Both the position numbers and the translations under genes were made by a program. 64,000 bases of DNA from Cloeon dipterum (lineage: Eukaryota > Arthropoda > Insecta > Ephemeroptera > Baetidae), in assembly GCF_949628265.1 (NCBI RefSeq), contig NC_088788.1, positions 6,758,001-6,822,000 on the forward strand, in the 5' to 3' direction. Numbering within the stretch: the first letter of the stretch is position 1; each line of letters starts with the position of its first letter. The notes below the pieces were generated by a model. It was given only the letters and a program-made list of their open reading frames with translations, was not told the origin of the DNA and did not search any database. Below, piece by piece: positions 5,999-53,878 of this stretch.

Positions 5999-8542
5999 AT
6001 GGACCTCGATAATGATGTAAAACTGGAGATGACAGAAACAAAACTGGATGATTTGAAGAGGCGGAACATGAAACTGACTGATTTCGCGGCTGAAATGGTT
6101 GTGTACAAACCAGAAATCTACTTGGATCACCACGATAAGAGAATGCAGCTGTCACGTTTGCGTGAGTTGAAAATTTTAAAATAATTGTATTCCAAAGAAT
6201 TTTAAGCCAGACATGCTTGTTTTGTATTTTAACTGCTTTAAAATTGTGATTTTTAGCTGTAGTTTTGCGAGTGAAACTTCTAAACCTGCTGATGAACCAA
6301 AAAACGTCCAGGTTTCAACTATCAAAAGAGCAAAATTTTGAAATCCGTAAGAAAACATTCGAAATTTTGCTCTGTCCAGCGGTAAAACATATAAATTTGA
6401 CTGGAATCCTGGGATTCTGCCCAATAACTAAGCAGTGCCACCATCTCATAAAAGTAAGAATTCTATTTTGATATAATTTCTCCTTTTGCAATAATTTTTT
6501 TTTTCAAATAGCTCATACGAATTATTGCCGAGAAGGCTCCTGAAGTTGAATCAATCACCATTCAAGGCTATATTTGGATGATTTCTGTGAGGATGTTTGC
6601 AAAGGAAATGTTTCTCTGCTATCTTGGAAAACTTACCAAGCTGAAAAAACTGATAATGCCCGATGAGGGATTTCCGATCAACTTTGCAAGCTTGAAAGAG
6701 CTCTGCAGAGACAAGTTGATAAATCTGCAGCATCTCGAGGTGCAATTGTATTGCGAATTGCTTGCTGATTTTGAAGACATCGAGGACTTCAAGAAAAGCT
6801 TTTCCAACCTGAGGGTGTTCATCTTCAGAGCGATTAGAGAGTCGGCAGTTCAAGTGGATGGGGATGTTTTGAAGGAGACACTCACGCGCTTATGTCTGCA
6901 GCATCTGCCAAAAATAATGATTGTCCGACATTTCGCCGATTACCCCGAGAGCGAGAACAAAAATCGGACGATTTCTGCATTTCCCTCGGAGCCGTCAGCG
7001 CTGCTTCACCTGCTGACGCACCCCAGCTCGGCCGGACTGCATCTCATGTTCCCGAACGTGACTCATCTCATGGTAATAATGAGGTCCAAACCAGCGGGAG
7101 CCAGACGTGCGATAAAATTGGTTCGCACTGCGCAGATCCAAGATGGCGTCTGAATGTTGGAAACAAAAAGCCCTCTTTGGATTGCCGTACGAGTGTCAAG
7201 AGTTTGTTTTTACGATCCAAAAGACACAATTAGTTAAGAGTTATTAAAATTGTGTCACAATTTTGACGAAAACTCGCTTCTTTTCGCGCATTTTCACGTA
7301 GTGACCGTTTACTCCACCTGACGCCATATCTGCGCGTCGCACGAATCTGGTCCCCGCTGGTCCAAACAACAGGCTTTTGGATTTTTTTTTGTATTTCAGA
7401 TCGATTGGAGGAATTGGCAACACAACGAGCGTGATATCGACGCAATGCTGCAGTTTCCTAAATTGGAAAGCTTGAATTTCAAGGATGTCCCGTCGGACAG
7501 AATCGTCGAACGATTTCTCATCAAATACGGAATGAATTTGCGCACGCTCATTATTTCTGATACGGAGGAGCATGACCTCCAATTGCAATTCAGCGATATT
7601 TTCCATTTTTGCCCGATTCTGGAGAATCTAGTTTTGTGGGATGTCGACATGATTGATGACTCAACTCCTCTCCGGAATTTTGCGAAACTGAGGAGTTTGA
7701 AGTGGCGTCCACTTGAGTAAGTTTATATTTATGAGATTTCGCGTTTTTTTTAACAATAATAAATAAATAAATATTAAAAGGCTCCACCACAAGACATTAG
7801 TAAATTTTCTCTCGTATGAAAATATAATTAAGATCAAGCAGTAAAGGTGAAACAGTTGCTTTAAAAAATAAAAAATAAAAAACAGTTGATTATTATTTTT
7901 GTTACTCCTAAAATCATGCAAATTATTTTAAACTTTTTAGTCTAGAAAAATGAAAATAAATATTTTTCTCCTCAGGAACATTGAAATTTATCAATGCAAG
8001 GAATTTTTAACAGTGCAACATTTAAAAATTGCAGCTCGAGGAACGTCTGCCTTTCCAACATTCTCGCAGCACCAGAATTGAGAAAATTCAGTATGGAAGG
8101 TACCGAGTACGACCCCGAGGATATGATAAAAGTTTCTCGTCTGATCAGGAAGCAGGAAATCCTGAAAAAGCTGAGAAAATTCGAATATGACCTGATGGGA
8201 TTGTATGACGTTCCTGTGGAGCCTGAAGATTTTGAGGGAGACGAATTTTTGCGATTTTTCGCGCCTTTCTGTTCTTTAATTAAAAACGCATCGGCCTTTC
8301 TGCCCGAGTTGAAAAATCTTAGCGTAAATTTCGATTTTGAAAGTGACGACGACGGTAGGGAGACGATTGGGGCAGATTTTTACTGCAACCTTTCCGTTCC
8401 GTTATTTTACGATTCGTATGACGCTGCTGTCTTCAAGTGGCTTGGGGATGATACGCTTGTCAATTTCCTCGCGGCTTTTAACCGCAGGAAATACTTTTTG
8501 TCGTCTGATTTGAGCGAACTCACCAGGGGTAAATACACTTAA
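5999..8542 (+). CDS. F-box/leucine-rich-repeat-like protein, 581 aa, five exons
   Basis: Exons are 5999-6161, 6257-6453, 6512-7072, 7400-7716 and 8035-8542. All introns are GT-AG and the phases agree (1746 nt). Start: ATG within AACCGGCCATGG. Near residues 53-66 a segment with LPVVLRVKLLNLL resembles the LPxxLRxxLL core of F-box-type motifs. Downstream, repeated leucine-rich segments such as LTKLKKLIMPD, LINLQHLEV, FPKLESLNF and LENLVLWDVD indicate degenerate LRRs. F-box/LRR proteins usually choose substrates for SCF ubiquitin ligases; that role is inferred, and the F-box assignment is weak. Exon 5 must start at 8035 rather than at the upstream CAG (7973-7975), because only 8035 keeps the frame. 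Intron 3 is long only because a MITE sits in it. The last exon and 3' flank are duplicated at 9425-10470. Confidence 0.8.
7092..7359 (+). mobile_element. hAT-type MITE (family A), copy 1, with 8-bp target duplication
   Basis: The ends are inverted: CAGCGGGAGCCAGA at the left and the complement of CAGCGGGGACCAGATTCGTG at the right. The element is flanked by a perfect 8-bp duplication, GTCCAAAC (7084-7091 and 7360-7367). CAG termini with 8-bp duplications are typical of hAT transposons. It lies in intron 3 of the LRR gene; without it that intron would be about 50 bp. Related copies are at 38372-38646 and, inverted, at 48560-48835. Confidence 0.9.
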
Positions 8543-10868: not shown

Positions 10869-13800
10869 ATGTTGTGGCTGCTAGGCGCCGTGACTTTGGG
10901 AGCAGCGGCGTTTAAAATTCTACCCAACAAAAAGAAAGAAATTTCTTGGACGGAATTCGTAGACAGGTGCTTCAAAATTAATCTGTCCCCGACTTTAACT
11001 GATACATAGTTGATTTTTATAGTTATCTGGACAAGGATTTGGTGAAAGAAGTGCAAGTCGTGAACAAGGAATGGGTCCGGGTGTTAACAAGTAGTCCTGA
11101 AAATGAGGTAGAGCTCTTTGGTTTTTATTTTTTTTTAAATAATTATTTTGTTTCCTGATGAAATTAATTAATTTTCTATCTATTTTTAAATAGGTTGTTT
11201 GGTTTGGAATCGGCAGCCTTCGCAGTTTCGAGTCGAGAGTGAGCAAACTGGAGGAGCAGAGGAACATTTCCCTTCCCATCACACACAAGAGCGAAGTGCG
11301 CCTGATGAACACACTCTTAGAGATTTTCGAATTAATCCTCCGATTCGTTCCTGCAGTCCTTTTAACCTCCGGTACTTGGAACACATCAGGAACAATTTTA
11401 TATTTAATTCTTTCTTCTCAGCTTTGGTCTTTTTCTTTTTCGGTTGGCCACGTCTCAGTTCTAACAACGCTTTTCAAAAAGAATCAGATTCTTCTGCAGC
11501 CCCAAAAGGAGCAATTATCGGCGGAGATGTTGACCTTGCTCTCAACTTCAGGTAATATTAATAGAAGAATTTTTTACAGAAATTAATTAAAAAAATGCTT
11601 CAGTGACATCGTTGGTTGCGACCAGGCAAAAATCGAAATCATGGAGCTGGTCAACTTTCTGCGCTACCCCGAAATCTACACCGCCATGGGGGCGAAAATT
11701 CCGCGAGGAGCGCTGCTCTACGGGCCTCCAGGGACGGGAAAGACGATTTTGGCCAAGGCCGCAGCGGCCGAGGCCAACGTCACTTTCATCGCCATGTCTG
11801 GACCAGAGTTCAAAGAGGTCTACATTGGAATCGGCCCCAAAAGAGTGAGTTTTATATTAATTTAACTATTTTAAGGTATTTTAATTTGAAAATTAGGTTC
11901 GCCAGTTGTTTTTATTTGCACGGAAACACTCGCCGAGCATTATTTTCATCGACGAAATCGACAGCATTGCGAAAAAGCGGATGAAAGCGAGCAGTGTCGG
12001 TGGTGGCTCTGATGAGGGAGAAAATACACTCAACCAACTGCTGATTGAAATGGATGGTAAGGAAAATTAGTTATTTTTTGGCTTTGGGATTGATTATAAG
12101 TATAAGACAATGATGGCATATTTTTTCCACTGCGATTGCTTCACTTCAAGAATTTAAATTAGTAAAAAAATCACAATTTTAAGACTACAAGCTCCACTTA
12201 AAATCGTTTACACCACTTCTGAATCTGGGAAACCATTTAAAAAAGAGTTAAAACTTCTGGTTTCATTTTTTTAGATTATCCATTCATGAATAATAATTTA
12301 AAATATTGCCAGAAAAATGAAATTTACTTCATTTTGCTCCTGAAAAATGGTTAAATTCAGGAAAATCGGGAAAACCATAAAATCTCGAGGGGGTAAATAG
12401 TGAGAAACAGTGCAAAATAATTATATTCGTCTTCCAAATAATTTTAAAATCATGCTCAAAGAATCTCGAAACTGTGTTGTTTAATATTTGTCTTGTAAAA
12501 ATTAAACTCAAATAATTTAATTACATACAGTTTGCCATTAGCAAAGGTCTGAAAACCCAAAACAGTTGTGAAATAAAATTCTATTAATAAATAAATAAAT
12601 AAATAATCGTTTGTGATTTTCAGGATTTAAGGCAAAAGAGCGAGTGATCATCCTAGCAGCGACCAACAGGCTCGACTCCCTTGACCCAGCTATAATGCGA
12701 CCTGGAAGGTTCGACCGGCTCGTCAACGTGCCGGCACCCAACCAAAAGGGCAGAACTGACCTTTTCGAAAAGTATCTCAAACCGATTCACCTGGACATCG
12801 CAATCAAACGATCTGAAATTGCCGAAGAACTGGCCAAACTCACTCCGGGATTTACAGGTTTTTATTATTTCTCTTTTAGATTGCAATAAATATTTTATTA
12901 AAAATTAGGAGCGGAAATTGCGGGAGTGTGCAACGACGCGGCCGTGTTGGCCACCCGAAACAACCAGTGCTCGGTGGAGAGGGAGAATCTGTACGAGGCC
13001 ATCGACAGGGCGCAGGTCGGCATGGGACAGGCGCAGCTCGATGTCAGTCCTGAGGAACTCAAAGTCGTTGCTTACCACGAGGCTGGACACGTCGTCACCG
13101 CCTGGTTCTTACAGCACGCCGACCCCCTCGTCAAAGTAATTAGTATTCATAAAAAATTATCGACAAAAAGCTAAAATACGAAAATTGAGAAAAAATGATA
13201 GTTTGATTTTGATTATTCTTATGTGAAGCTTTTTTGTTTTAATTTAAAATTTAAAATGTGTATTTTCTGAAGGTGACCATTAAGGCTCGTGGAGACTCTC
13301 TGGGACACACGCAGTTTAGGCCGAGGAGCCTGCAGCTGCACACTGAGGAGCAGCTGTTCCACAGGATGTGCGTCCTGCTCGGCGGCCGCGTGGCCGAGCA
13401 GATGACCTTCGGCGTCATATCCACAGGGGCCACCTCCGACCTGCAAGTCGTCACCAAGTTGGCTTACGGAACCGTAAGAAATCATTATTTTAAAAATATT
13501 TCAAAAAACGAAATAATTGTGCCTTTTGAAATTTACGTTCTAAGTTTCTTCTTCTAAAAAACTTAAAATTAAAACTGAACTCTAATATGATTTATAATGT
13601 AGCGGTTCCCGCTTATTGGCGTTAACTCAGTTTAATAATAATTTATTTCTTACAAAATTGAAAACTTTTAATGGAAAATCAATAAAAACAATATTTTTTC
13701 GGCCTGAATTGTCTTTTAATTATTTATTATAAAATGGTAGAAAATATAAATTTTCTGAAATAGTGTCTTATTTAGGTTGCGCATCTGGGCATGAACAAGA

Positions 13801-14093
13801 AGGTTGGACCTTTGAGTTTTGGCGGCGAACGCAAGCCGCTCTCAGAGGATATGTCCAAAATGATTGACGCCGAAGTGCACAAGCTCGTTTCCAAAGCCCT
13901 GAAGACCACAACCGATCTCCTCTCAAGCCACAAAAAGGACTTGAAGTTGGTGAGAACTACGACCGATGGTATTTTGATACAATTAAATATATATTTGGGT
14001 TTAAAACAGATTGCGGAGACCCTTCTGAAAGTGGACACCCTGAGTGCTGGAGAAGTAGGTGAGCTGATTGGACCTAGACCTTTCCTACAATGA
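10869..14093 (+). CDS. m-AAA protease, AFG3L2/paraplegin-like, 603 aa, eleven exons
   Basis: Exons: 10869-10966, 11023-11107, 11194-11371, 11422-11551, 11604-11844, 11897-12056, 12624-12857, 12909-13135, 13273-13473, 13776-13949, 14010-14093; all phases agree. The family forms an ATP-driven, zinc-dependent protease in the inner mitochondrial membrane. Visible are a first membrane span at residues 1-19, an FtsH extracellular-type domain with SWTEFVDSYL, a second span near residue 100-115, Walker A GPPGTGKT (204-211), pore loop YIG, Walker B IIFIDE, the arginine region RPGRFDR, the zinc motif HEAGH (432-436) and the third ligand in ATSD (about D507). All catalytic residues are present, so it is probably active. 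The N terminus starts at the first span, about 120-130 residues later than AFG3L2; a presequence exon is missing or absent. The last intron (13950-14009) is also an open frame, so its retention would not stop translation. Confidence 0.88.
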
Positions 14094-26080: not shown

Positions 26081-26512
26081 GCTTTATTCAAAATTAGTTT
26101 CAAAGTAATCTTTATTATGGTTCTGCAGGGCTATTTTGCCCCATACATTGCCATATCCAGACAAAATAATATCAGTTTGAACATAATTGTATAAAAGAGA
26201 GGTGATTCAATATTTCTTGAGGTACTGTTCTTTTAAAAATTCCTTGAATGCACTTTGGTTTCCGTTGAGACACAAATTCGGCGGAAGATTGTTCCAGAGG
26301 CGGTAGCTCAGCACTTGAAAACAGTTTTCGGGCACTTCAACACTTACAAATGGGGCCAGTAGTTTCATTTGATGCGCTCTTGTCCTGCCAAAAAGATTTA
26401 CATCGTACATTTTGGTTGCTAAATGGCACAGATAAGGCGGACAATTTTTATTCAGAATTTTGTGTGTCTGCACTAACAAGTCCAAATTAGTCCAATTTGC
26501 TAATTTATTTTA
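26081..26512 (-). mobile_element. 5'-truncated non-LTR retrotransposon (reverse-transcriptase C-terminal tail)
   Basis: The minus strand reads LANWTNLDLLVQTHKILN from about 26512, then CPPYLCHLATKM, GRTRAHQMKLLAPF, SYRLWNNLPPNLC and FKEFLKEQYLKKY to a stop at 26207. The order hKILN...PPYL...RTR...LhxPF...RLWNxLP...FKxxLKxxL is the typical end of LINE ORF2 proteins. Everything upstream, including the polymerase domain, is absent, as in 5'-truncated insertions. About 130 bp of 3' UTR with ATAATAAAG follows. Confidence 0.75.
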
Positions 26513-33900: not shown

Positions 33901-36900
33901 ATTCCGCACGCACGAGAACTCGACCTCGCTGTTCACGTAGGTCGTGTCGTTGAGCAACTTTACCGAGCCGTATGGCACAGGTGAGAATTTTCCACAGTCC
34001 ACGTCTGCAAATTAAAGATTTAATTAAACTATTTCTTTTCTATACAGATTTTTTTTAAGAATCTTCGGAAGTCCAGACAATTCAGAAGAATTAACGGCTT
34101 GAAATAATTCCTTCAAAATAAAATGAATATAATAAGTTGCATTAAATTTATACCTTTGCATAAACAGTAAGATATATTTAATTTGTACATTGGTTGTTTA
34201 AAATGTAATTATTTTTTAATGTCAATATTTTTTTGTAGAAAAATTATTTAAAAAAATATTGAATATTTACGTATCATGCAATCAAACGACTAAAGACTTA
34301 TACATCATTACGATCGAGGCTATTTGGGTAGAAAAATAACATTAGGAAAGAATTGGAGCAATTGTTGGAATTAAATGATGAAAATTGAGTCCACTCACAT
34401 TGGCAGGAAGGAGCGCGCGAGGACCACTCTCCGTTGCTGTTGCACTCGCGCGTGGGCTCTCCACGCAGCAAGTGTCCCGGCTCGCAGTGGTACTCGATGC
34501 GCGAATGCACGTTGAAATCGTAGCCGATCACGAAGCCACCATTCGGCACCTCAGGCTCCTCGCACGTAATCACTGCAAAACGGGGCAAATTCGATATCAA
34601 TCTCGACGCGTCAACCTCCCAAATCTGATCACTGCACGCATGCTTTCGCTGCTCGAATTAATTTTTTACACAAATAAAGATTCTATCTGCTCTGGCAAAA
34701 TTGAAAATTATTTATGACCGGGTGTGAACGTGAACTACAAATTCAACAGTGAGGAACGAGATATTTATTGTTCGAGAAAAGGAGGAAGGAATTAAAATTC
34801 TCAGTGTGAAAATAAAAGATCTAAAAATAATTTTTAGCGTTAAAGAGGAATGATACTGGAAAAGCCGGGAAAATGCTTGTTGCAAATGCATAAACTCATC
34901 CCTTAGGATTCAGTTAAAGCCTAAATTGACCTAAAAAGCACTGTAATTTTTTGAGAAAATTGGCTGGAAAGTTAGCGTGCTTTTCAAATGGAAATGGCTG
35001 TCTCCTTACTTGAAATGCGATTTAATTTCAAAACCAAGAGTTTCTCCAATAAGTGGCATACACCGTTGGACAGATCTCGACGAGAGGAATCGGAATATGC
35101 CAAGAAAATATGTTCAAACACTGTACATTTTGGAGAAAATTGGCCAAATTTGAATTTTTAGTGTAGGAAGGTCCTTTTTTAATATTGCAAAATTGTTGAA
35201 CAAATTGTTCATCGATCAATTGTTTAAGGCATCCAACAATTTAAATAATTTTCAATTGTTGCCCAGTATCATTCCACTTTAAATAAAATGATTTTGGCTG
35301 CCGGCAGGAAAATATAAATGTTTTCTTTTTCTGTAATTTGAATTTGTAGTGTAATTTTCATGACAATTAATTTTAAATTGTCTAGAAATGTTATTTGGCA
35401 CAAATTTACCCGATTTAACACAGAATAAATATTTTTAAATAAAATATTTGAATTTTCACATTTATTTTATCCGAAATAGAATTCTTACGTTCGCAGGAGG
35501 GCGTGTGGGCGCTCCACTTTCCGTCGAGTCCGCAGGTGATGATGGAGTCGCCCTCGAGCCAGTAGTCGGCCTCGCACTCGTACCTGGCCACGCTGCCGGC
35601 CGTCGTGGTCGCGTTCAGCAACTCAACGCGGCCGTGGAACGTGTTGGCCGGCGCCCCGCAGTCCACAAATCGACACTCTGGCGCGCGGCCCGACCACGTG
35701 CCCCCCAGGCCGCAAGTCAGAACCTTTGAAAAAAGGGAAGATGAATTAGAAATAAAGGTTTCATAAAGTAAATTTTATATTAAAATTTAAATTAGCAGGA
35801 GAACGAAATTTCTTAATGCTGCGAAAATTAATTTTTGTTAAAATTATTGCATTAAAACTTACAGCTTCGCCGAGAAGGATGAAGCCAGCTTGGCACTTGT
35901 AGGTGGCAGTGGAGCCAGCTTTGCGTCCTGTCATCTCCACGCGTCCTCCGGCAACCTCCGGCGGCTCGGGACACCAGGCAACTATAAAAATAATTTAGTT
36001 TTATAATTTTGTTGTTTTAATAAATAATTGATGTTTGCTTACAGAGACACTGAGGCTCTTCTCCGGACCAGACACCCTCGTCACCGCACTTTTTCTTTGC
36101 GTCACCCTTCAGGGTGTAGTTGCTCTCGCAGGTGACTTCGGCCAATGCTCCGTGTGTCGTTCTTCCACTCAGCATCTGCACTGAGCCGTGTTCTGGAGCC
36201 TTGATCGAACCGCAGTCCACGTCTAAAGTAAAGAGATTAAATAAATTTAAATGGAAAGACTCAAATTAAATTAATGTTAAAAATATTATTAAATTATGTA
36301 TTTAATTAAAAAACAATATATGCTATTTTTCTATTTCTTATTAAAATTTCAAAATAAAAAATAGGCATTTTTCAACAATTATAAGTTAGCCGATGCAATT
36401 TTATGTTTTATTAAGGCAAGAAACTATTAAACAGTAAATAATAAAAATTCTTTGAAGAGATCTCAAATTTGTATCATTGATTAAATGATTTATCATTCAT
36501 CTGAGTGAAATAAATTTGCAAAAAATTAATATTTTGTTGCAATAAGGGAATGAGAAATTGCATATGTTAACTCACATTTGCAAGTGGGAGCCACGCCCGA
36601 CCAGAAGCCAGTGTTGAGGCACTCGCGGGTCGCGTTCCCGACCAGCATGTGACCCTCGGGACACGAGTAGGTGATCGACTTGCCGACGACGTGATCTCCG
36701 CCGGCGATGCTCGTGTTCAGGTTGCGATCTGGACTGCCGCACGCGGCCGGCTCTGCAAAAATTAAACACAAATTCGATTACTTTCACGCACGCAACCAAG
36801 AAAATAACTAAAATTCGTGACTGTTTATTCTTTACTTTTATAAATACGGAATTTTATTTCTATTGGCTGCGAACTATATTACATTTTATCTTATTTTAAA

Positions 36901-39900: not shown

Positions 39901-42900
39901 ATTAATAAATAAAAATGTTTAAAATCATTTCAAAAAATTATTTATTCACCTATCGTGCCTGGATACCACGCACAAAGAGGGTTTCTCTGCAAATCAGAAC
40001 TGTTGCCCACCCTGATTTCCAGGTCCTGCAGCAATTGGTGACCTGAAAGCAGGAATTGTTATTGTTTATAAAGATTATTGATTTTTTGATACTAAGATAG
40101 ACATAATTCAATTTTGAGCCTCCTTAATTATTTTTTTAATGATTAAAAGATTCATTTGTAGAGCTTTAATTAATTAAACAATCAGTTTCGTAAAAATACG
40201 GCTCAACGCATTATGATAAATTTATTTTAAAGTTTTTTAAATTAACAAATATTCAATTTTTGTAATTCCTACCGCAGCATCCTCTTGAAGTGAGTCTGAC
40301 GGCCCTGACAGGGTACTCCCTGAGCAGATCAACTCTCCACCAGGGCGAGGGCTCCCTGCCCGTCTCGGTGCACCTTTTGCCGTCATGGATGACCTCTTTG
40401 TCACCGTCGACCGCGTTCGGCGCGGCGCCGCCTCTCATCGACGACGACTGGTTCGCCGGCTTCCTGTAAGCCACGTTTGTGCCTGAAAAAAAATTAAAAC
40501 CGACAGTCATTAAATTTAGAAATTATTAGATTATTTGTCAACGAATTGATCCGGGTAAAAATTAGACTCAATTTTCGAGAAATTATAGATTAGCAATTTG
40601 AACAAGTAAGTGCTAATTTTACAAATTGTCCGAAAGTGAGCTAAAGTTAAAAATTTATAATTCAATTATTTCCTGCCATTATATCGTCTTTTGCCAATTA
40701 ACGAAACGGGAGACGGAGATGAGAGAAACTTAATTTGAGCCGCAATAATTACGATAAAAGTAGAGAATATACGCTCGATCTGACCTCGACTCTCGCGCCG
40801 CGCGGCAAATGATTTTATGTATGTATAATGCGTGAATCAGCAGACAAAGTAGCCCATCCAGCACTCCATAGAAGCGGCTAATAAAAAAGAACAGGTGCTT
40901 CCGCGGCCCAAACACGGCGATTACACCGCAAAGTGCTTTCTTCCGAATGCGCGAGAGCAGCAAGCAGCAACTACTTTTCTTTCGGCCTGGCTGGCACAGT
41001 TTTCTTCCAAAGCTCTTTTTGTCTCACAATCCAGTGAGCGAGAAATATTTTTTTTTGCGTTGTATGCTTTCATTATGCTGAGATAATTTTCACTTCAATC
41101 TTACTTTTGTATTCTCTTTTTGTAATTGTTAGCGGATCGGACAGATTTTGATTTGGGGTTTTAATCCGTAATTAAAACACTAGTAAAGACATTTAATATC
41201 TGAACAGCTTTAAGAAGATATAATACTTTCTTACAATCTAATTTTTGTTTTACAATTGTTCCAGCTCATTTCTTTTTATGGATAAATAATTTAAATTATT
41301 TCAGGATGCCATATCAATGTAGTGCCATTAGAGAATATCGATTCCGTTAATGAAAAAGGTAAGTCGACTAACTATTAATAAAAAAAGGTAAAAAGTTAAG
41401 CTTCTTTAATAAAAAGTTGCATATTTTATCTTTAATCAATTTTCCTTGAAAAAATATATTAATATATTGAAAATAAAATAAATACAAATAAAAATGAATT
41501 TAAAATGCAAAACTATAAAAATATTTTTAGCATTAATATTTATTAAACTTAACCTAATTGTTAATTATTAAAATAATTACTACCATATCTACTGCAATTT
41601 AGTTATAAAAGTAATGTTTTCTGAGTCGAAATTAAAGGGTAAAAATGTCATTGTTAGCATACTAATTAGTTCGTCGAGTTTATTGTTATTGTTTGTGGAA
41701 TGATACAGGGCAACAATTGAAAATTATTTGAAATGTTGGATGCCATAAACAATGGATCGATAAACAATTTGTTCAACAATTTGCAATAATAAAAAAGGAC
41801 CATTCCTACATTAAAAATTCAAATTTAGCCAATTTTCTCCTTAATTTAGAGTGTTTGAACATATTTTCCTGGCATATTCCGATTCCTCTCGTCGAGATCT
41901 GTCCAATTGTGTATGCCACTTATTGGGGAAACTCTTGGTTTTGAAATAAAATCGGATTTCAAGTAAGGAGACAGCCATTACCATTTGAAAAGCACGCTAA
42001 CTTTGCAGCCAATTTTCTCAAAAAATTACAGCGCTCCTTAGGTCAATTTAGGCTTTAACTGAATCCTAAGGGATGATTTTATGCATTGGCAACAAGCATT
42101 TTCCAGGCTTCCGCAGTATCATTCCTCTTTAAGCAACAATTTATCTCTGCAAAGTGCAATAAACAATTCACTTCTAACAGCAGTTATTTTCATCGAGCCG
42201 ATTTTCTATCGAAATTTTAAATTTAGCTCTTTCCTCATTTTTAAAGAGTATATACGCGTATTTCAAGTAAAGGTTAAATGGATTTTTCATTGTTATTCTG
42301 TAAAGCTTTACTTTTCAAATTATCCCGTTCACGTTTGTGTTCTATTTACAGTCCCAGCGACAGCACCTCGTGCCAGGTGTCTACGGTTTTTTGAACCGGT
42401 GAGACACCTGTCATGCATAACAATGCTTTTTTGAACGTGTGTATCTTTTACTGTTTTTAGCCACACAAATGAACGTGATGGGACAAACTTGACCGAAAAT
42501 GTACGTAATTCGTAGTTAAAGTGGTATGATACTGGGCAACAATTGAAAATTATTTGAAATGTTGGATGCCTTAAACAATTGACCGATAAACAATTTGTTC
42601 AGCAATTATAAATAATAAAAAAGGACCTTCCTACACCAAAAATTCAAATTTTGCCAATTTTCTCCAAAATTTGCAGTGCTTGAACATATTTTCTTGGCAT
42701 ATTCCGATTCCTCTCGTCCAGATCTGTCCAACGGTGTATGCTACTCATTGGGGAAACTCTTGGTTTTGAAATTAAATCGGATTTCAAGTAAGGAGACAGC
42801 CATTGCCATTTGAAAAGCACGGTAACTTTCCAGCCAATTTTCTCAAAAAATTACAGTGCTTTTTAGGTCAATTTAGGCTTTAACTGAATCCTTAGGGATG

Positions 42901-45900
42901 AGTTAATGCATTGGCAAAAACCAATTTCCAGGCTTTTCCAGTATCATTCCTCTTAAACAAACGCTCATTTTTCCCTACCATTCGATGGATTGTTAGTTTT
43001 GACTGTTTAATTGTTGGAAAACAGTTTATTCTTTATTATTTTCGGAAGATGACCCAAATTGTGAGTGAAATCATTTAAATTTTGACCCCTTTTATCCCTA
43101 ATCATGGGCTTTTCCTCCAGATGTTAATAATTTTGAAATCGTTCGTCTCAAGTGCGATTTGCGCCACGAGCCTGCTAATTTCGAACCTGGCCCTGTGGAC
43201 CGTGATGCGATGTGATGGTTTCATTGCAAAACCCTACAGGACACTGGCTGATTTGTAATTAATTTGCAGACGTTGAATACAACGAGTGCTCGAGCCCTCT
43301 TTGCCTGATTGCGGCCATCAGCGTGGCCACCGACGTGCACATAACGACCTCCGCGCTTCTTACTCCGCTCGCCTTTCATTTATTTGGCTTGGTAATAATT
43401 TATCAAAGAATATTATTTATGTACAATTCAACCAAAAGATAATGACACAAACAATTTAAATTTTAAATCATTCCACGTGATTTGAAGTAATTTTTTGTAA
43501 ATATTTTATTAAATTGTTTTAAACACAGCACGAAGATAGAAATTAGTTTTCACAAATGTTAACTGGATTTTGGTACTTTCATGAAATGAAAATGAAAAAT
43601 GATTAATAAGTGGGCAAGAATTTCTTCATCCTCAAGTAGAGAATTTATACAATATATTTATAATTATTTTAATTTTTCAGTCATCTGAAAATGCAGCCTC
43701 AGAGGCACTGTGGCTGTCAATAGTGAGTCTTTTGCTGCTTCCAAGTCAGCCGATTGCTTTTCACAGCCTTCTGAGTAAGTACATATAATTATATTTAAAT
43801 ATGATATAATGATAATTAAAGAAATTCATAATAAATTATTTATACAGGTTTAAGGAGATTGGGAATTATTTATGGAGCGTCCTTGTGTCACCTGACTCTC
43901 CTCAACTGGTTTTCAAGAAACTGAACAGCATATTAAATTATTCAAGTCAAAATTAGCAAGAAAAATCATGACTTGGTGTTTAAAAAAGTTGCTGGCAAAA
44001 TAAATTAATTTACCCAGATGGTCTTTTAATATTTTTGGCGTCAGTTCTAGTTTACCTTGAAATTCAATTGCACAATAAACTCATGGAAAATAATAATAAT
44101 AAAAAGTAAACCTTTGTGATTCTTACAAAAAGTCAATTTTTTAACCCTAGAAAATTATCTAGAAATTCAGCTATATTTTTTTAAAGGTTCAGCACTCTGC
44201 CTGCTGACAATAATTATTGTTTTTTTTTATAAAAAAACTTCATGTTTTTAAAAAAACATCAAGATTAGCATATTATTGATTAATTAATATTAATTAATTC
44301 AAGTCTGAAAGCGTAATTCATTATTGTCCAGCGACATTCTTTTAAAAACACGTAACCTCTGCTTCTTTAACAATCAACAATGGCTGCTTCCCGTGTTTTA
44401 ATTTGAGCTACTTGACATTCCTCGCGAAATATATGTTCGAAAACAATTCATCGGCCCACATTTTCATTGTCTCCTGAAGGTGGAGTCGCGAGAACGACAC
44501 ACTCTCGCACCTGCTTTTTTTTGTTCAAAGAGGCTTCGTCATTGCGCCATTTACGTCGATTGGGTATTATTACGCGCGCCGTGCAAAGTGCCGATTCCTT
44601 TTCCTGGTCAGCTCGCTCTTTCTCTCTGCTCTGCTGTCATCGCGGCGAGAAATTTAATAACGGTAGCCGCGCAGGCGAGTGCAGTGTTACACACACACAC
44701 ACACACACAACACACAAACTGCAGCTAGGTGCAAAAAATAGATAATAATATACGAAGGCTCAGATGCAGCAGCTGCTCGGTTGGAATTTCTAGGTTGATC
44801 TCCTGGATGCAAATGATCGGATATTTTAATTGGTTGATTAGAGGAAAAATATAAACACTGCTCCAGGGTTGCTAATAACCTGCATTTTTCAAAAACAAAA
44901 AATGCAATGCAGTGGTAAAAAGCATATTTTATATTTTAACCAGTTTCTAGCAATCAATGTTTGCACTGTAGTTTTAAATAATTTTCTAATTATTTGCTCG
45001 TGGCCTCGACTTGAAAAATTGTCGGAGAGAAATTTTGCCAACAAGTGGCAATTTAAAAGAAAGAATCTATACAGCAGAGAAAATTTTGACCACTCCAAAT
45101 ACAAAATTTAGATTTTCACAGGGGAAAAATGGAATAAATTAATTTCTCGCGCAAGAAATTGGTAAAAATTGAGTGGTGGTAAAAACTGGGTGGAAAGCAA
45201 TTGCACAATTAAGGAATGTTTGATAGGAAGGGTTTAAAATAGCTGCACAACCCAGGAAAACCCTGTTTCCAATGTTAGCAATTAAATTGAGTAAATTTAA
45301 AGCAAATACGTTATAGCCTTGTGATTTGTTTTCTTTTAGAAAAGTTAGCAAAATGGGGAGAACTCTCTCCCTACTTGAAATCTTATTTTATTTTTGAAGA
45401 AAGGGTTTCCCAAAATACCGTTGGATAGATCTTGAAGAAAGGAATCGAAATTTACCAAGAAAATATGGCAAAGAGCGCTGTAAATTTTGGAAACGATTGG
45501 CAAAATTTGAATTTTCACCGCAACAAGGTCATTTTTTTACAAATTGCTCGTTGTATTGAAGGTGGCAATTTAATTATGTATTTATACATCATGCTTTTTA
45601 TTTATTTCATAAAATTATTCCGAAATTATTATCACATATTAGATCGAAGGAATAAAAATTACAAAAAAAGGTCACATCTTTCTCATTAAAGCATTAATTT
45701 CAACAATACTGTTGTGACACTCTTTGGCCTGTTACTGACCTTAGAGGCGCCATGACCAGGCGCCACGTCAGGGGACCCTCCAAAATGACACAATAAATAC
45801 TCTTTTCACTATAGTGATTTAGTATTAGAATTAATCTTACGTCAGACTTGCTCTCTATACACGTCGACTCAAAGCCCAACAGTTATGATCCCAAGATTAT

Positions 45901-48900
45901 TTAACACCCTGCCGGTTGAAATTAAAATGATACAAGACAAGACCCATAGAAGATAACCAACTATTTCTAAATATTGTGAAAAGAATATTGAAACAACACA
46001 AATATATGTTTTATAAATAGTTGTAGATAGGATTAGTTTTGACGTATTTTAATCAGTCAACAACTTAAATATTAACTTAAACTAAATAAAAAAATAGTAT
46101 AAATCATTTGAATTTTTCTAAAGCATTTTACCAGTTTCAAAATGACATAATAAATATCTAAAATCTAAAGGGACCATGAATTACAATATCGTGTGGAAAT
46201 TTGGAACAAGGAATGAGATTTAACTTAGTTATTTATAAATTCAGCGAATTCCTGTGCAACAAAGGAAAAATGGCCCAGCAGGCTAGATCATTTTGTAATT
46301 CAGGCCTCGTCGGGAGCAAAAAAAACGTCGTGGGACAACGATGATTTGCAACAACAGCGAGCTATATAGTGGGTTTGTGGCATAACGGGGACAAAAACAC
46401 GAGTGTGTGAGTAATAGCAGCGCAGCAAGCAAGCAAGTTTGTTGAACAACTCGGTGTGCATGTCGTGAAAATTGCACTCTTGTGTACATATTTGCACGCG
46501 CGGTGTGCTGTTTGTCCCACAATTAGACTCTGCCAGCGAATAAAAGGAGCCTAATCGAAAGCGCATACATATACATACACATATGTATTATTGTGTGACG
46601 CACCACTTATGCAAATCATTAGGCCGCTGAGCACGACCTCTGAGCAACCTGTCTAACTGGACAGTAATCAAGGGAATCGATCAGTCAATTATTATATTTT
46701 TAAATAAGATTCTTCAATACTTCATTTTAGAAGAATCTGTAGCTCTGATGAACGTTTGCAATAAACATTCGTATCATTCGTATTTGTAAAATATCTATTA
46801 TCTATATTTTTATCCCCACATTTTCGTGTTTTCATGTTTTTTTGTAAACCTTAATTTCATTTGTTCTTTTTTCCCCCTAGCACATTTTTAAATCAAATTT
46901 TATTTCATTTTTTAAAGTTGATAAAATTTACTGGTTTGAATTTATGAAAATTTAAACAAAACTTTTAATTAACACAAAATTTATTATTTATAAAAAATAA
47001 TCTAGATTGAAAAAAGCAGAAATTGACTCAATTATTTTAAGTTTTTAGAATGATTTAATATTTTCTTTCCAGATTTTTAATTTAGCAAAGAACATTTTTT
47101 CAGTATTTGTAAGAGAAAGTAGTCCAGAAAACCTGTTGGAGCAATAAAAAGGTCAATTTTCCCCATTTTTTCCGCTTGTCAAAGTGTGACCAATGACCAA
47201 GCAGGCACCAGCTTGTCTCCATCTCCGTAGCAAAAAATTCATTGGTTACACATCTGCAGGTTTTTGGCCTCTGCTTTGTTTGCATTCGGCTCGCGAGACT
47301 CCTTCTCGCTTTCCCATAAAAAGCTGAATTAACTAAGTAAGTAAGCAGTTCGCTCCCACGCACGCACGACTCTCGCGCTAAAAATGCAGTTTCATCGCTG
47401 CATCTGAGATTTATTGTCTTTATATTTATTTTCTTCTCTTGTGAAACGGCGGAATAGCGACTCAGCCGAGCATGGAAAAGCCAAAAGCCGAGGTGCATTT
47501 TGCAAGCTGCCGAGAATTCCGCTCGCTCGCTCGCTCGCTAAGCAGCCAACCTTGTGCCGGAAGTTCCGCCAGCCTTGGCTCTTTATCTTTCCAGCCTTTT
47601 TTCTTTTGCACAAAGGACGAATAAGGTGAAAAATTACATAAGGGACGACCGACGAACAACTGATAACTAGTTATTTAGTATTAGGGTTTCAAAAAAATTA
47701 AATTTATCACAAAGTAGATGAAGCTTCGTATCAAATCGAATCGCTATTGATCAGTAATATATAAATTGATACTGGTACGTTCATTCGGTTCGAAATATAT
47801 ATTTATTTTCTATGAAAGAAAGCTGTAATAATATATGAGAAATTTAATTAAATTACAAAAGATTTTTGTAACTTATAATTAAATATAGAAATAAAAAAAC
47901 CATTTTGTGTATTAAAATGAAATAAAAAATTAGAATTAGTTACTGAACTATTTGATAAATTTGCTTAAATATTTTTTAAAATTATTTTTATGTAGATCTG
48001 AATAGTAAAAAATGTTTATTCTCTTCATTTTTAAGTTGGCGTTTTTTAATGCAACGTTTCAATTAAGAGCCTTGGATAGAATTTTAAATATCTTACGCTT
48101 CATCCTTTGTTGTTGATCAGTTCTAATTTATTTAGGCAAATTGAGGTTTTAAATGCTTGTAGAATTACTTTTAAATTTGCTAAAATGGGGACAGATAATC
48201 GGAATTTGGCTTTGAAATTTTGATTTCTTCTTCAGGATAAGAAATAAATAAACCACGTCCGTCAAAATCAAAGTTACTGAACCACGTATTAATTTTAAAA
48301 TTTAACTATGTGCAAAAAATTAATAAAAAAGCTCATCAAATAATTGAGTTTACTCAACCCTACCCTAGAAAAGAAATTTTTCAAACATAAATTCGTTAGA
48401 GTGCTCTGTGTACGTCCAAAGAATAATTTTTTAACATTAAAATCATAATAATATCGACCTTTTCATCTGTGAGAACGGCTAATTTAGCCTAGAATATTCA
48501 ACTGGAATTTCCAAGTTTATTAACATCAAACGGTTAACGAGTGCAAAAAGCGTTTAAATCAGTGGGGGCCAAATTCGTGCGACGCACAGATATGGCGTCC
48601 GGTAGAGTATGGCGCGAAAAAACGGTCACGTGAAAATGCGCGAAAAGAAGCAAGTTTTCGTTAATATTGTGACACAATTTGCATTACTCTTAACTAATTG
48701 TGTCTCTTGGATCTTAAAAACAAATTCTTGACACTCGTATGGTAATCCAAAGAGAGCTATTTGTTTCCCACATTCAGACGCCATCTTGGATCTGCGCAGT
48801 GCGAACCAATTTTATCGCACATCTGGGCCCCGCTGTTTAAAATTAAAATAAAATTTGTTTATCCTATAAAATTAATTTTCAAGCAATAATTATTTTTAAA

Positions 48901-51900
48901 AAAAAACCTGAATCTGTACAAAGATCTCGTTTGTCACTCTCGAGTGCTAAATTGAAAAGAAAAAGTAAATCAAGCGAGTCGTCATTCTAAATATGGTGAA
49001 TCCAGTCCGTCCACCTCCGACCTTTCACGTGCATTTTCGAAAGGTCCGCGCCCGTCAGCTATACGTACACACACCGTTTATATGTATGCCTGGCTCACGA
49101 TTATCGCCTGCTGCAATATAATAATAGTTGCGGCGTGGAAGGGAAAGGGAATCGAGCGAGTGACCAGTTTGAAGTTTGCGCGACCACGCCTGTGCGACCG
49201 CCGCCGACTCGCTTTCCTCCGCGATCCGATCAAGCAAGTGCATTCTAATTGCACGGATCACTTGCCGACCTGCATGCAATTACGCTGCGCTTTCCTTATC
49301 TCAAACCGATCGTTATTGTTGTGCTCCAATGAGGAAATATCAAATAATAATAAGCGCGTGGAAATTTTCGGCCGTTTAACAAAACCAACGCATTGTTTCG
49401 AACTGTCTCCTGATTATTTTGTTATGAAATTTGAGGGATCGTTAAAATAACAACCGACAGGTTATAGGTTTCCCTTTCAAATTAGTTCAGGCTTATATAT
49501 TAAAGACAGTTCCTATTTGTTTATCAATATTTTAGAAATAAATAAATTATAAAATCAGAAACAAAAAAGTGGAAAATAATTTCCAAGAGTCAAAATTCAA
49601 CCCTTGAAAAGTATGGTTTTTCGGGAATGTTGACTAAAATTTTTATAGCCAGATCAGTTCATTTTTTAGACATAGTCGTCCTCAAGCAATGTACAGTAGT
49701 GGTTCAATAATTGGAACAAAAATCAAACAAAAAATCGTTTTTCAAATAAATCTTGAATTTTTAATGCCTTGAAACCTTCCAGGAAGATGAAATTACAAAT
49801 TGGATATACAACCTCTAAATTTTTCAGAAGAAAAATATTGGGCTAAAAAAGCAAATCGGAGTTGCATGGCAAATTGAGGCTTGTTATTCGTAATTTTGAG
49901 AAGTAGATCTTTTTATGGAAAAATGCTCGATTTAATACATGTTAGAAAAAAGATTTTGGCTTATATTTTAATCCTGGAATAACTTAAAATGAGAAAATTA
50001 TTTCCATAACATTCATTTTTTACTATTAAATATTTCCAATTCAATTTTCTCAGTTTGCTTAAATCATGTCAAAATAATTTCATTTAATTAATAATATTTT
50101 TACTAATTTAACAAAATATTACATTAGAATTTTAATTATGAATAATATATGTTTTCTAAAAGGTCAAATAATTTGTATAAATATGATCTGACGCCAGCAA
50201 ACGGAACCTAGATATAAACAAAACTTTAATGCCTAAAAACCATTATTTTAAATGACATTTAGAGCGCGTTTAACTAATAGAAAATTTAGGATTATGAACA
50301 GACAACCCGGAAATAAAAATGGGAAGTAATCTAAAAATATGAGTCCGTTTGAGCCTAAAAAATCGATCGCAGTCCAAATAGAATGTAATTATTTGCACGA
50401 CGGCAATCAATATATTTCGTTTCTTCGCAAATTTTTAGAGAAATGAGTGGCTTTTGCGATATACGTTGGATAGATAATATCGAAAATTACAGTCCAATTT
50501 TTAATGAAATTACTGCAAAAACAAAATAGAGATTTAAGCAACATCGAACACTCGGTTTATAGCAGCACAGGATTGATAAATAATGTTTGGTCTACTCAGG
50601 ACAAAGGCCAACTCTAAGGTTTTATTGGTTTTATTAAAAAATATGTAATGGAAATAACAAAAAATATGTTTTTACAGTAATGATACTAAAAATAAAATAA
50701 TAATAATGATGAAATTGTATAAACAAAATTATTTTCGTAAACTTTTCAAATTGCAAAAATTGAAAAACATTTTTTCTTAATTTTTTAGCAAATGCAGACG
50801 GTTTTAGATGGTGGTAGACGAATTTAAATATGGTTTGATGGCTTTAAATTGCTTATTTAGTGCTTTTTCGAGGGCCCCGCAATGATTTGTGGCTCAGTAA
50901 AAATTCAATCATCTAAATTTCTCAGCCTAATTCAGAAAAAAAATAAATTAACAAATATTTGTAATAAACTTTTATAACGGCCGCATAGAAAACCACAATT
51001 GAGAAGTGTGCCAAATTCAAATTCGCCATAAACAAAAATCTAGAATTGAGTCACTAGACAGGCTAATCAGGCTGGAATGATTCTTGCCCGGGCGCACAAT
51101 GAGCAATTCTTTCTCTCGCGTTATTTCTTAACGTCCGATGCAAATGTATAAATTTATTATTTTTCAACACACCGCACGCGATCGCTGAGCCGGAATAATA
51201 ACACGTTGGCGTTCGTTTCTTTGCCGATCCTCCACGCAGCCAGATTGAAAAGCATCTATTCTATCTCTTGGCTGAGTTTTTTATTATTAGCGTATGTACA
51301 CCCGCGCATTAGGCTCCGACTGACTGCTCTTTAGGATCTCGTCACGCCTATTGACGCTCGCGTGTGTGCTTTCCATTGTCTCCCAGCATCCGAATCGCCG
51401 CTGGTTCTTTTCCCTCGCGTGCGAATGGTTTAATTAATTCCTGCTGGACTGTGATCGATTTATTTGGTATTTGGCTCAAATACATATTTTCTTAGTCTAA
51501 TTCCAATTTATTTCTTGGTGCCTGTCTATGTATATTATCCGATATTTCTCTACGTAATTTCATGAACATTACTAAAAAACTATGTTATTTATGAAAATCT
51601 GATCATTCAATAACGTCAGATCACATTTATAAAAATATATTACTCATATTAAAACATTATTCTCTTTTTAAAATTTAAAGATAATATTCAGTTAAATAAG
51701 TAAAAATTTATTTTGTATATTTTAAATTTAATATAAAAATTACATGATGTTAAAACAAACTGAAAAAATTAATCTAAAAATGTTTGATAGCTAAAAATAA
51801 ATGTTTAGCAAAGAATTTTAAATATTTATTAATTTAGTTTTTATTTTTAACTGGTCCAGATAATAGTTCATAAGTTCCAGCACAAACAGGCCAAATTGGA

Positions 51901-53878
51901 ATAAATAATTATTCCTTTAAACATACATTTTTCTTCATATTTACACAAAATGTGACGATCTTGTTGCATATACAATAATTTTGACCCTTTTTGTAACCTT
52001 TATGGCCTCTGAGGAAATCTAGTATCGACGTGGAAGGCCAATTTTATGAAATTTGCGTGCGTTGAAATCTCTTTTGTGATAACCATATAGAAAACAAAAA
52101 TTGCCTTGCGAGGCCGGCGAAGAAATGAATAATTGAAAAAGCGTGAGATTCGTGATTAAGAGGTCAAGAGGAGCACGACGCTTTTATATTAATATTTGAA
52201 AAATGCATATCTCATTTTCTATTGTCTCTCTCTCTCGGCGCAAGAGTGTCGAACGAACAGTTCACGAAATTAGAATCGCCTTGAATTTTCGATTTTCGCA
52301 TATCTTCAGCGGTCAAGAATCGTTAACTGCGACGGCATCAAGGAGAAATTCCCTCGCTGCTAATTAGGAAGACGGCATTATTTTTTTTTCTTAACTGCCA
52401 GATTTACGATGGAGAGCACTTTACGAGAGAATTTCACGAGTTCGGAGGAATTTTTATTTTTTAACTCACCGCAGAATGGGAGGTCTCCCTGCCAGACCGC
52501 GCGAGATCCTTGTTGGACGCAGGGCAACGAGATCGATCTGAAAAATTTGTAAAAATCTTATTATATTAAAGGGACAAATTTATTAAAAATGGAAAAAATA
52601 CAGTCTCTCTAAAATTTAAAGCATTTTCTTGGCATATTTTAAATCCTCTCGTCGAGATCTATTCAACGGTGTTTGCAACTCTTTTGGGAAACTATTTGTA
52701 GTGAAATAAAACGAGATTTCACGTAGGAAGAGTGTCTTTAACATAACTGAAAAGCATCTAACTTTGCAGCCACTTAACTCAAATATTTAAAAAAATTGTT
52801 TTTAACTGAATTAAAAGGGATTGTTTTATTTATTCCATGTAAAAAGTAATTTCTAGGGGTTAAATCTTTTTTAATCCGAAATATTTTGTAAAATTGTAAA
52901 TTTTCGTAAAGTAAAAAAAAGCAGACAGTACAAATGGTGATCAGATGTAATTTTAAATAATTTTTTATTCCACATGGAACAAAGACTTATATTAAAATTG
53001 ACACATCATGCACTGTTGGATAGATCTGGGTGAAATTAGGAACTAAAATTAGTTCTAAAATTAATGCCAAGCACTGTGAGTTTGAAGTAAATTGCCAAAA
53101 TTTGAATTTTACCTCGAAAGTTCGTAGTGCATTTAATTGTTAAATTGATCAATTTAAATTAATATTTATTTTAATTAAACTGTTTGAGCTATTCTTTATA
53201 TCACTAGATATAATGAACGCTTTATTCCCACTGAGTTGCAAGAATGAATTTCGGTAAGTAAAAATGAGATAAATAAAGAAACCTGTCACCTATTGGAAGC
53301 CCAATTTTCCTCCTAAACGTGTTTAATTGATTTTCTAAAGTCTTCTTCATTCCAATTAAAAATAGATACATATTAAGAAAACTAAAAAATATAATCATTT
53401 TACTACATACTGAGCGTGAAAAGAAGAAAAGTTATCTCAAGGAATACATTAAAATTACATAATTAATTAATGAATTAATGTATCTCCAGCAAAACAGGTC
53501 AGAAAGTGATATTTTATATAACAAACTACCGCAATTAAATGAGAATAATAAAAGCAGAGCATATTGTGCTGTCAGAGCGCACTGCTTGTGTGAAGCAACA
53601 TTCATTCACAAACAACATTTTAACGCTCACTGGCCGATAAGCACGCGAGTGCAGAGCGTCGATAAAGAAATTTCCCAGCACGTTCATTATTGCAGGTGAA
53701 AGAAAGCTGCAGGTTGGGTGAGAGAAAGAGCAGAGGAAGAGGACTCACCCGAAGAGCTCGTAGCCGTCGTCGCACGAGTAGGTGGCCGTGGCGCCCACGC
53801 CGGGGGTGCTGCTGCTCAGGCTCACCCTCGAGTTCAGAGGAACCGCCGGCAGCGGACACTGCTGTCCCACGCTCAGAC
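30990..53878 (-). CDS. fw: Furrowed-like selectin-type membrane protein (19 coding exons, N terminus incomplete)
   Basis: Exons in transcript order: 53749-53878, 52470-52537, 40273-40482, 39950-40042, 39768-39890, 39020-39316, 38751-38900, 36576-36752, 36043-36222, 35863-35981, 35489-35723, 34399-34572, 33822-34004, 33523-33765, 33095-33274, 32810-32983, 32569-32748, 32396-32507, 30990-31266. All junctions are in phase, giving 1100 residues plus a missing signal-peptide exon. Domain order: sushi, FTP fucolectin, C-type lectin, ten sushi, one membrane span, cytoplasmic tail. This is the layout of Drosophila furrowed, a cell-surface adhesion protein known from eye and bristle development and planar cell polarity. 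The 12-kb intron between exons 2 and 3 holds an opposite-strand gene. The exon before 53878 must end in phase 1; none was found up to 64000. Confidence 0.9.
31267..32395. other. Furrowed-like gene, last intron
   Basis: 1.1-kb intron holding the foldback element at 31536-31941 and otherwise AT-rich sequence. Confidence 0.7.
31536..31941. mobile_element. Foldback element with about 130-bp inverted arms
   Basis: The left arm (31536-31665) and right arm (31810-31941) are reverse complements at roughly nine bases in ten, beginning CACCAGTTGCAT and including CCAACAGATGG and GCTGCGATTTCAGACTCAAT. The loop is about 150 bp. It lies in the last intron of the furrowed-like gene. Confidence 0.85.
34573..35488. 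other. Furrowed-like gene intron with a complete MITE
   Basis: 0.9-kb intron, about half of it the family B element at 34840-35282. Confidence 0.8.
34840..35282 (+). mobile_element. TTAA-flanked 442-bp MITE (family B), complete copy
   Basis: TTAA, then AGAGGAATGATACTGG at the left; CCAGTATCATTCCACT, then TTAA at the right. The ends are inverted repeats of about 15 bp and the flanking TTAA fits a target duplication. Closely related complete copies are at 41692, 42516, 55630 and 59875. No coding capacity. Confidence 0.88.
36753..38750. other. Furrowed-like gene intron, 2.0 kb
   Basis: AT-rich flanks around a GC-richer part near 37320-37640 that includes nine CG dinucleotides in a row (37578-37595). 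The hAT-type MITE copy 2 lies close to the downstream exon. No nested gene seen. Confidence 0.55.
38372..38646 (+). mobile_element. hAT-type MITE (family A), copy 2
   Basis: Starts CAGCGGGGGCGGGAAG and ends CTGGCCCTCGCTG, with the family interior (GGTTCGCACTGCGCAGATCC and TTCGCGCATTTTC). Flanks GCATAAAA and ATATAAAA match at six of eight positions, an aged duplication. It sits about 100 bp from a furrowed-like exon. Confidence 0.85.
38751..39316 (-). other. fw: Furrowed-like: C-type lectin domain
   Basis: Two exons encode the domain: CYEFHTTKGASYEQARASC, LVWLGATRDPGYTSRTWRWV, then QPNNYNGEQNC, WQWNDVGC and HWVCQH. The four conserved cysteines and the WND calcium motif are present; the sugar tripeptide is QPN. 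Calcium-dependent glycan binding is therefore plausible. Confidence 0.88.
39768..40482 (-). other. fw: Furrowed-like: FTP fucolectin (F5/8-type) domain
   Basis: Three exons encode NVAYRKPANQSS, NAVDGDKEV, CTETGREPSPWWRVDL, LTSRGCCGHQLLQDLEIRVG, NPLCAWYPG, FTCARPIVGRHVAVQ and GSLSLCEVEVF. This is the tachylectin-4/fucolectin pattern, including the paired CC and the GRHV stretch. Members usually bind fucose; that is family knowledge, not shown here. Confidence 0.9.
41350..43924 (+). CDS. Nested four-pass membrane protein gene, 165 aa, eight exons
   Basis: Coding exons: 41350-41358, 42352-42398, 42461-42500, 43049-43060, 43121-43217, 43270-43391, 43681-43774, 43848-43924. Every intron is GT-AG and all phases agree (498 nt), which is hard to get by chance. 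It lies within an intron of the furrowed-like gene on the other strand. The product has a polar N terminus with an NLTE glycosylation-type site, then four hydrophobic segments near residues 37-65 (LLISNLALWTVM), 79-108 (CLIAAISVATDV), 118-139 (LWLSIVSLLLLP) and 145-162 (GIIYGASLCHLTLLNWF). A loop has two cysteines (ECSSPLC). Exon 4 is only 12 nt. The first exon appears to have 5' UTR from 41305 after an acceptor. AATAAA follows near 44000. I do not recognise the family. If translation starts at the exon 4 or 5 ATG, the upstream exons are untranslated. Confidence 0.7.
41692..42132 (-). mobile_element. TTAA-flanked 442-bp MITE (family B), near-complete copy
   Basis: Left end TTGTGGAATGATACAGGGC (first bases altered), right end CAGTATCATTCCTCT then TTAA. 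It lies in intron 1 of the nested gene and within the large furrowed-like intron. Confidence 0.85.
42516..42956 (-). mobile_element. TTAA-flanked 442-bp MITE (family B), complete copy
   Basis: TTAA on both sides, ends AGTGGTATGATACTGG and CCAGTATCATTCCTC. It lies in intron 3 of the nested gene, in the same orientation as the copy at 41692, so the two flank exons 2 and 3 as direct repeats. Confidence 0.87.
45340..45560 (+). mobile_element. Old, diverged relic of MITE family B
   Basis: The core of the family is still readable (CTCCCTACTTGAAATC, CCGTTGGATAGATCTTGA, GGCAAAATTTGAATTTT), but the ends are lost and many bases differ. Confidence 0.65.
45711..45765 (+). repeat. Solitary terminal repeat of element C
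   Basis: GTTGTGACACTCTTTGGCCT and GTTACTGACCTTAGAGGCGC match the ends of the element at 4875-5435. No second arm or interior lies nearby. Confidence 0.85.
45830..46010 (+). mobile_element. Decayed tail of a second non-LTR retrotransposon
   Basis: One frame reads SPTVMIPRLFNTLPVEIKMI, which has the RLWNxLPxxI pattern found near the end of LINE ORF2 proteins. The preceding part is in another frame and stops follow soon after, so it is a broken fragment. Confidence 0.45.
48560..48835 (-). mobile_element. hAT-type MITE (family A), copy 3, inverted
   Basis: Starts CAGTGGGGGCCAAATTCGTG and ends ATCTGGGCCCCGCTG; the interior is the reverse of copies 1 and 2. Flanks GTTTAAAT and TTTAAAAT match at six of eight positions. 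Confidence 0.87.
52470..53878 (-). other. fw: Furrowed-like: N-terminal sushi domain split over two exons
   Basis: Exon 53749-53878 encodes GQQCPLPAVPLNSRV, GVGATATYSCDDGYELF; exon 52470-52537 encodes SISLPCVQQGSRAVWQGDLP ending in FC. Together they make one sushi domain that joins in phase to the FTP domain exon at 40482. The donor after GGCTACGAGCTCTTCGG must be used for the phase to work. Confidence 0.87.
52600..53110. mobile_element. Two diverged relics of MITE family B
   Basis: 52600-52860 reads in reverse orientation (CCTCTCGTCGAGATCTATTC) and 53010-53110 in forward orientation (CACTGTTGGATAGATCTGGG, GCCAAAATTTGAATTTT). Both lack recognisable ends. They lie in the intron between the first two visible furrowed-like exons. 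Confidence 0.6.

Follow-up and report, generated by a model that had tools for sequence, protein, structure and literature searches.

In insects, it is common for one gene to lie within another. According to PMC3786989, about 6% of D. melanogaster genes are nested and often run opposite to the host, and PMC3689595 places most embedded mosquito genes in introns. Since nested genes are common in insects, an intronic setting gives no reason for doubt. For instance, 2mit is described in PMC3786989 as lying inside a large intron of Drosophila timeless2, opposite to its host. We compared this situation with a locus of the mayfly Cloeon dipterum, in a window of 64,000 nucleotides (the whole stretch of DNA analysed). 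Here, a first-pass annotation had proposed an eight-exon gene of 165 residues at 41350..43924, which contains a five-exon core at 43049-43924. Like 2mit, the core lies inside a large intron and opposite to its host. 2mit is a characterised gene in that source, whereas the core is a candidate known from sequence alone, with neither a relative nor a convincing coding signal. Our literature search found nothing on nested genes in Cloeon dipterum or on a nested gene in a furrowed intron, and no relevant work on mayfly lineage-specific transmembrane genes.

The host, a furrowed-like gene, is encoded on the minus strand, and a domain search found sushi and C-type lectin domains in it. The best match of its exon translations was a Cloeon dipterum protein, with 85% identity across 73% of the query, and furrowed and sushi-domain proteins of many arthropods ranked next; this search returned at least 201 proteins at E ≤ 1e-5 among 7,995 candidates scored. 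Among the matches listed, each host exon was about 95-100% identical to the C. dipterum protein where the alignment stays within the exon ends, and 16 of the 18 host introns were placed using this protein. The second host intron (40483-52469, minus strand, 11,987 nt; donor GCG/GTGAGT, acceptor TTTCAG/G) contains all of the chain, core and upstream features considered below. The placement within a furrowed-like intron and antisense to the host was therefore confirmed, as the chain region lies wholly inside this intron, read from 52469 to 40483 on the opposite strand. It is the host gene, and not the core, that belongs with the furrowed and sushi-domain selectin-like insect proteins. In addition, a GC-rich segment at 40278-40465 has a high plus-strand score; it was rejected as a plus-strand exon because it is a minus-strand host exon.

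Other features were also seen in the window. Exons at 13255-14093 (plus strand) with a peptidase family M41 domain belong to an FtsH/AFG3-type mitochondrial protease gene. Two long frames of 213 and 185 aa at 6512-8542 (plus strand) look like pieces of a single leucine-rich protein and have no Pfam match at E ≤ 0.01. A Pfam match at this level was also lacking for a 100-aa frame at 26207-26509 (minus strand), which we take to resemble the final part of a reverse transcriptase from a retroelement.

The ATG at 41350 encodes MKK and is followed by a strong donor (AAG/GTAAGT), and the proposed chain ends with the TGA at 43924. The first-pass annotation gave no exon list, and we counted the chains between 41350 and 43924 that keep one frame and encode exactly 165 residues. 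There were 2,640,043 such eight-exon chains at lenient thresholds (donor ≥ -6, acceptor ≥ -3) and 2,400 at moderate thresholds (donor ≥ -3, acceptor ≥ -1). With donor ≥ 0 and acceptor ≥ 1, zero chains of up to eight exons linked the two positions. Furthermore, when comparison segments of 2,575 nt were taken from both strands and scanned at lenient thresholds, all 90 of them held a chain of at least 165 codons in at most eight exons, the lowest maximum being 168 codons. Because every segment offered a chain of this length and the alternatives run to millions, the chain is what intron DNA offers. Thus, the eight-exon, 165-residue gene was not borne out, there being no unique path among these alternatives. 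The GT-AG exons in one frame can be followed for the last four exons, and in the first part there is no unique way on from 41350. Meanwhile, two smaller details agreed with the sequence: the longest exon, given as 122 nt, fits 43270-43391 (122 nt), and the ECSSPLC loop is encoded in it.

The 5' half of the eight-exon model spans two copies of a dispersed repeat. One copy, at 41695-42133 (plus strand), has genome-wide matches and terminal inverted repeats, with the ends GGAATGATAC; the other, at 42516-42958 (plus strand), ends 91 nt before core exon 1. A third copy lies at about 34839-35285 on the minus strand. The copies are about 440 bp each and non-coding, and their terminal inverted repeats read GGAATGATAC(TGG), with one mismatch in one copy. 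At least 45 further genome matches with 66-95% identity were found when 40 of 2,783 candidates were scored, and at several genome sites two copies lie near each other in opposite orientation. This repeat resembles a MITE family.

Upstream of the core, a possible exon at 41305-41358 (plus strand, 54 nt; acceptor 3.99) contains the ATG at 41350. Its donor (AAG/GTAAGT, 8.18) is near-perfect and exceeds all 16 host donors. The single open frame of this segment lacks an ATG and is not the frame of the ATG at 41350; the segment may belong, as an exon, to a non-coding or unrelated transcript. A possible joining exon at 42352-42398 (plus strand; acceptor 2.96, donor CCG/GTGAGA 5.98) would link it to core exon 2 in phase, a link that we regard as unproven. 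We rejected a longer gene made of these two segments and core exon 2: its phases fit, but it had no relatives in our searches and no fitting first exon. Three first exons with a donor above 0 were listed upstream of 41305-41358, and none leaves the needed phase.

With up to five exons allowed and thresholds of donor ≥ -3 and acceptor ≥ -1, no chain in 43049-43924 is longer than the core, which has 131 codons. These thresholds were set so that the core is admitted, and they therefore favour it. All its exons are on the plus strand. Exon 1 (43049-43060) encodes MTQI from a putative start codon that is preceded by A at position -3 and has the donor ATT/GTGAGT (1.95). Exon 2 (43121-43211) begins with ATG and encodes the first hydrophobic segment (acceptor 3.3, donor GAT/GTGATG -1.39); an alternative end lies at 43217 (donor ATG/GTTTCA -5.5). 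Exon 3 (43270-43391) carries ECSSPLC and the second hydrophobic stretch (acceptor 1.4, donor TTG/GTAATA -1.40), is open in one of six frames and, with a codon score of +13.1 bits, is the one clearly positive core exon. Exon 4 (43681-43774) encodes the third hydrophobic segment (acceptor 3.2, donor TGA/GTAAGT 1.04, codon score -8.3 bits), and exon 5 (43848-43924) a weak fourth one before the TGA (acceptor 2.7, codon score -13.3 bits). An AATAAA stands downstream at 43999, a motif frequent in AT-rich DNA. The GC content was 48% in the core exons versus 25% in the core introns.

The core was not longer than expected by chance. Among the comparison segments, which overlap each other and include a few host exons, 23 of 380 in one set and 20 of 356 in another matched its 131 codons. 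This length was also attained in 11 of 400 resamples of its own segment and in 563 and 469 of 20,000 simulated sequences. In loci with real genes, 362 of 1,086 segments (kinase) and 348 of 1,098 segments (GPCR) reached this length. For codons plus splice score, 22 of 706 comparison segments came up to the value of the core.

The total Kyte-Doolittle hydropathy gave a different result. The core scored 123.2, and 0 of 356 window segments reached it (maximum 111.9). It was also reached in 0 of 500 resamples and in 2 of 20,000 Markov-3 and 14 of 20,000 Markov-1 sequences. In the kinase loci, the maximum was 123.1, and thus 0 of 1,086 segments attained the core value. As a positive control, 41 of 1,098 GPCR-locus segments reached the core value. 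One and the same chain, the core, was best for both length and hydropathy. With lenient thresholds, 1 of 356 segments reached the core hydropathy. When the thresholds were set to the range of the host sites (-0.5 and -1.1), the core chain was lost, and the best remaining chain scored 82.9, which was equalled by 3 of 356 segments. From the simulations, about 0.02 to 0.1 chance occurrences of such a hydrophobic chain are expected in the window (about 150 non-overlapping segments, two strands), a range tighter than the real-DNA comparison sets, given their size, can bound. In addition, the GRAVY of the core (0.94) was higher than in all 151 comparison chains of at least 100 codons (maximum 0.90).

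The first-pass annotation had described four clear hydrophobic segments, and the hydropathy profile departs from this. The 19-residue Kyte-Doolittle maxima were 2.03, 1.58, 1.71, and 1.22, with a shoulder of 1.35 beside the second. Two segments (2.03 and 1.71) thus exceed the threshold of 1.6, one lies just below it, and one is weak, which falls short of a four-pass profile. Two segments above 1.6 were also found in 8 of the 151 comparison chains of at least 100 codons.

Splice sites were scored with generic matrices, which were not trained on this genome, and the 16 placed host introns served as calibration. On this scale, the host donors ranged from -0.42 to 7.73 (median 3.3). Two of the four core donors (-1.39 and -1.40) were below all 16 of them, and a third (1.04) was below 15 of 16, whereas all four core acceptors were inside the host range. 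With two donors out of range, the core sites are not like those of the genes of this genome.

Codon usage was equivocal. The training set consisted of 79 stop-free coding segments (55 kinase and 24 GPCR, taken from 126 and 146 matches), and the non-coding set contains some host exons. The core scored -0.05 per codon, the 9th percentile of the 79 coding segments; seven conserved stretches of the known genes of the window scored 0.37 to 1.06. Its synonymous score was at the 15th percentile of the coding segments and above 93% of 121 non-coding chains. Meanwhile, a GC3 as high as that of the core (0.573) occurred in 5% of 121 hydrophobic non-coding chains and in 0.2% of 434 simulated chains. For codon plus splice score, 56% of 380 segments equalled the core model; this share was 5% for membrane amino acids plus splice sites and 3% for openness plus splice sites. 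A cost of 6 bits per intron raised the last two values to 68% and 100%, and with this cost the core model was equalled by 68-100% of the 380 segments across four scoring schemes. When GPCR codon usage was used for scoring, 380 of 380 segments beat the core model. Furthermore, with codon usage as the score, the search favours a chain ending shortly downstream of core exon 3.

The searches for relatives gave negative results. In a protein database whose coverage of C. dipterum is known for the host protein only, nothing was found at E ≤ 1 for the core product among 162 candidates of about 73-233 residues, nor for the longer product among 1,526 candidates of about 198-630 residues. No Pfam family matched three product versions at E ≤ 10, insect chemoreceptors and PMP22/claudin included, and NCBIfam had no match to the product at E ≤ 10. 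In PDB, nothing fell below E 0.93, and three matches at E 0.93 to 2 were taken as chance. Rfam returned nothing across the window at gathering thresholds. In the genome itself (190 Mb in 10 contigs, five of 33-43 Mb), we found no second copy of the product at the protein level and no second DNA copy of 42960-44010 or 41180-41700; the uniqueness of 42134-42515 at the DNA level was examined only inside the repeat search, with its 40 scored candidates out of 2,783. Like PMP22/claudin-type four-pass proteins (LW...C...C), the core product is short and hydrophobic and has a cysteine-bearing first loop. In contrast to that family, it has no Pfam match at E ≤ 10 and only two segments above the hydropathy threshold. 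A claudin/PMP22 resemblance and a truncated chemoreceptor were both considered and dropped for want of a profile match.

Taken together, we consider that the eight-exon chain and the five-exon core are incidental intron sequence and not a gene, with a probability of roughly two in three (0.68); this value, like the weights behind our wording of the alternatives, is a judgement and not a computed posterior. The reading is carried by the number of alternative chains, the null frequencies, the repeats, the weak donors and the searches that found no relatives. The eight-exon path would be one of very many open GT-AG chains through the non-coding DNA of the furrowed-like intron, and its first half would simply cross copies of the dispersed repeat. 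Most likely, the core is a chance product as well, and the best such stretch: a GC-rich, stop-poor patch (43121-43391) would be joined to two short hydrophobic pieces. It would probably have neither a transcript nor a protein of its own; if transcribed, it would be part of the host pre-mRNA and then be spliced out. However, its total hydropathy, GC3, GRAVY and codons plus splice score (22/706) are points against chance. Hydrophobic chains as large as this one seldom arise by chance, and this one is among many features open to being picked. Membrane protein genes that are short, single-copy and unannotated and have two poor donors are rare.

We regard such a gene as unlikely. It would be a small, mayfly-restricted, single-copy gene of four or five exons (from 43049 or 43121 to 43924), antisense in the host intron, with a putative hydrophobic product of 127-133 residues and two to four membrane passes. 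Its own promoter would lie near the downstream repeat copy, and it would have escaped annotation through its small size, single copy, lack of relatives and narrow expression. That the core was born or kept in the furrowed-like intron and overlooked by transcript-guided annotation is part of this reading and equally doubtful. The rarity of the hydropathy by chance, a GC3 above most non-coding hydrophobic chains, the higher GC of exons than introns, the single chain best by both length and hydropathy and, as PMC3786989 reports, the frequency of opposite-strand nested genes in insects all argue for it. Against it, two donors are weaker than every placed host donor, codon usage is near neutral, with negative scores for exons 4 and 5, and a database that contains the C. 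dipterum host protein gave no relative, despite an annotation described in PMC7250882 as built with 37 RNA-seq datasets and yielding 16,364 evidence-based models. The idea of an undescribed, lineage-restricted membrane protein is thus tenable as a minority hypothesis for the five-exon core, on account of hydropathy and GC3; it fails for the full model, and poor donors, equivocal codon usage and the searches without relatives stand against it. The raised hydropathy and GC3 alongside eroded donors and near-zero codon scores, with repeat copies directly upstream, could also be the remains of a decayed gene, a former intronic membrane protein gene that would have lost its good splice sites and its expression. 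We consider this quite improbable: the chain is free of stops and frameshifts, and since neither the own genome nor the protein database yielded an intact relative, such a gene would have no known parent. Incidental intron sequence is therefore the reading that we prefer.

If the eight-exon claim were true, it would describe an orphan gene, concealed from ORF scans by its small exons, for a membrane protein in an early-branching winged insect. Our check shows that an unaided eight-exon chain proves little, and it narrows the claim to one core of 876 nt with one unusual property, its hydropathy.
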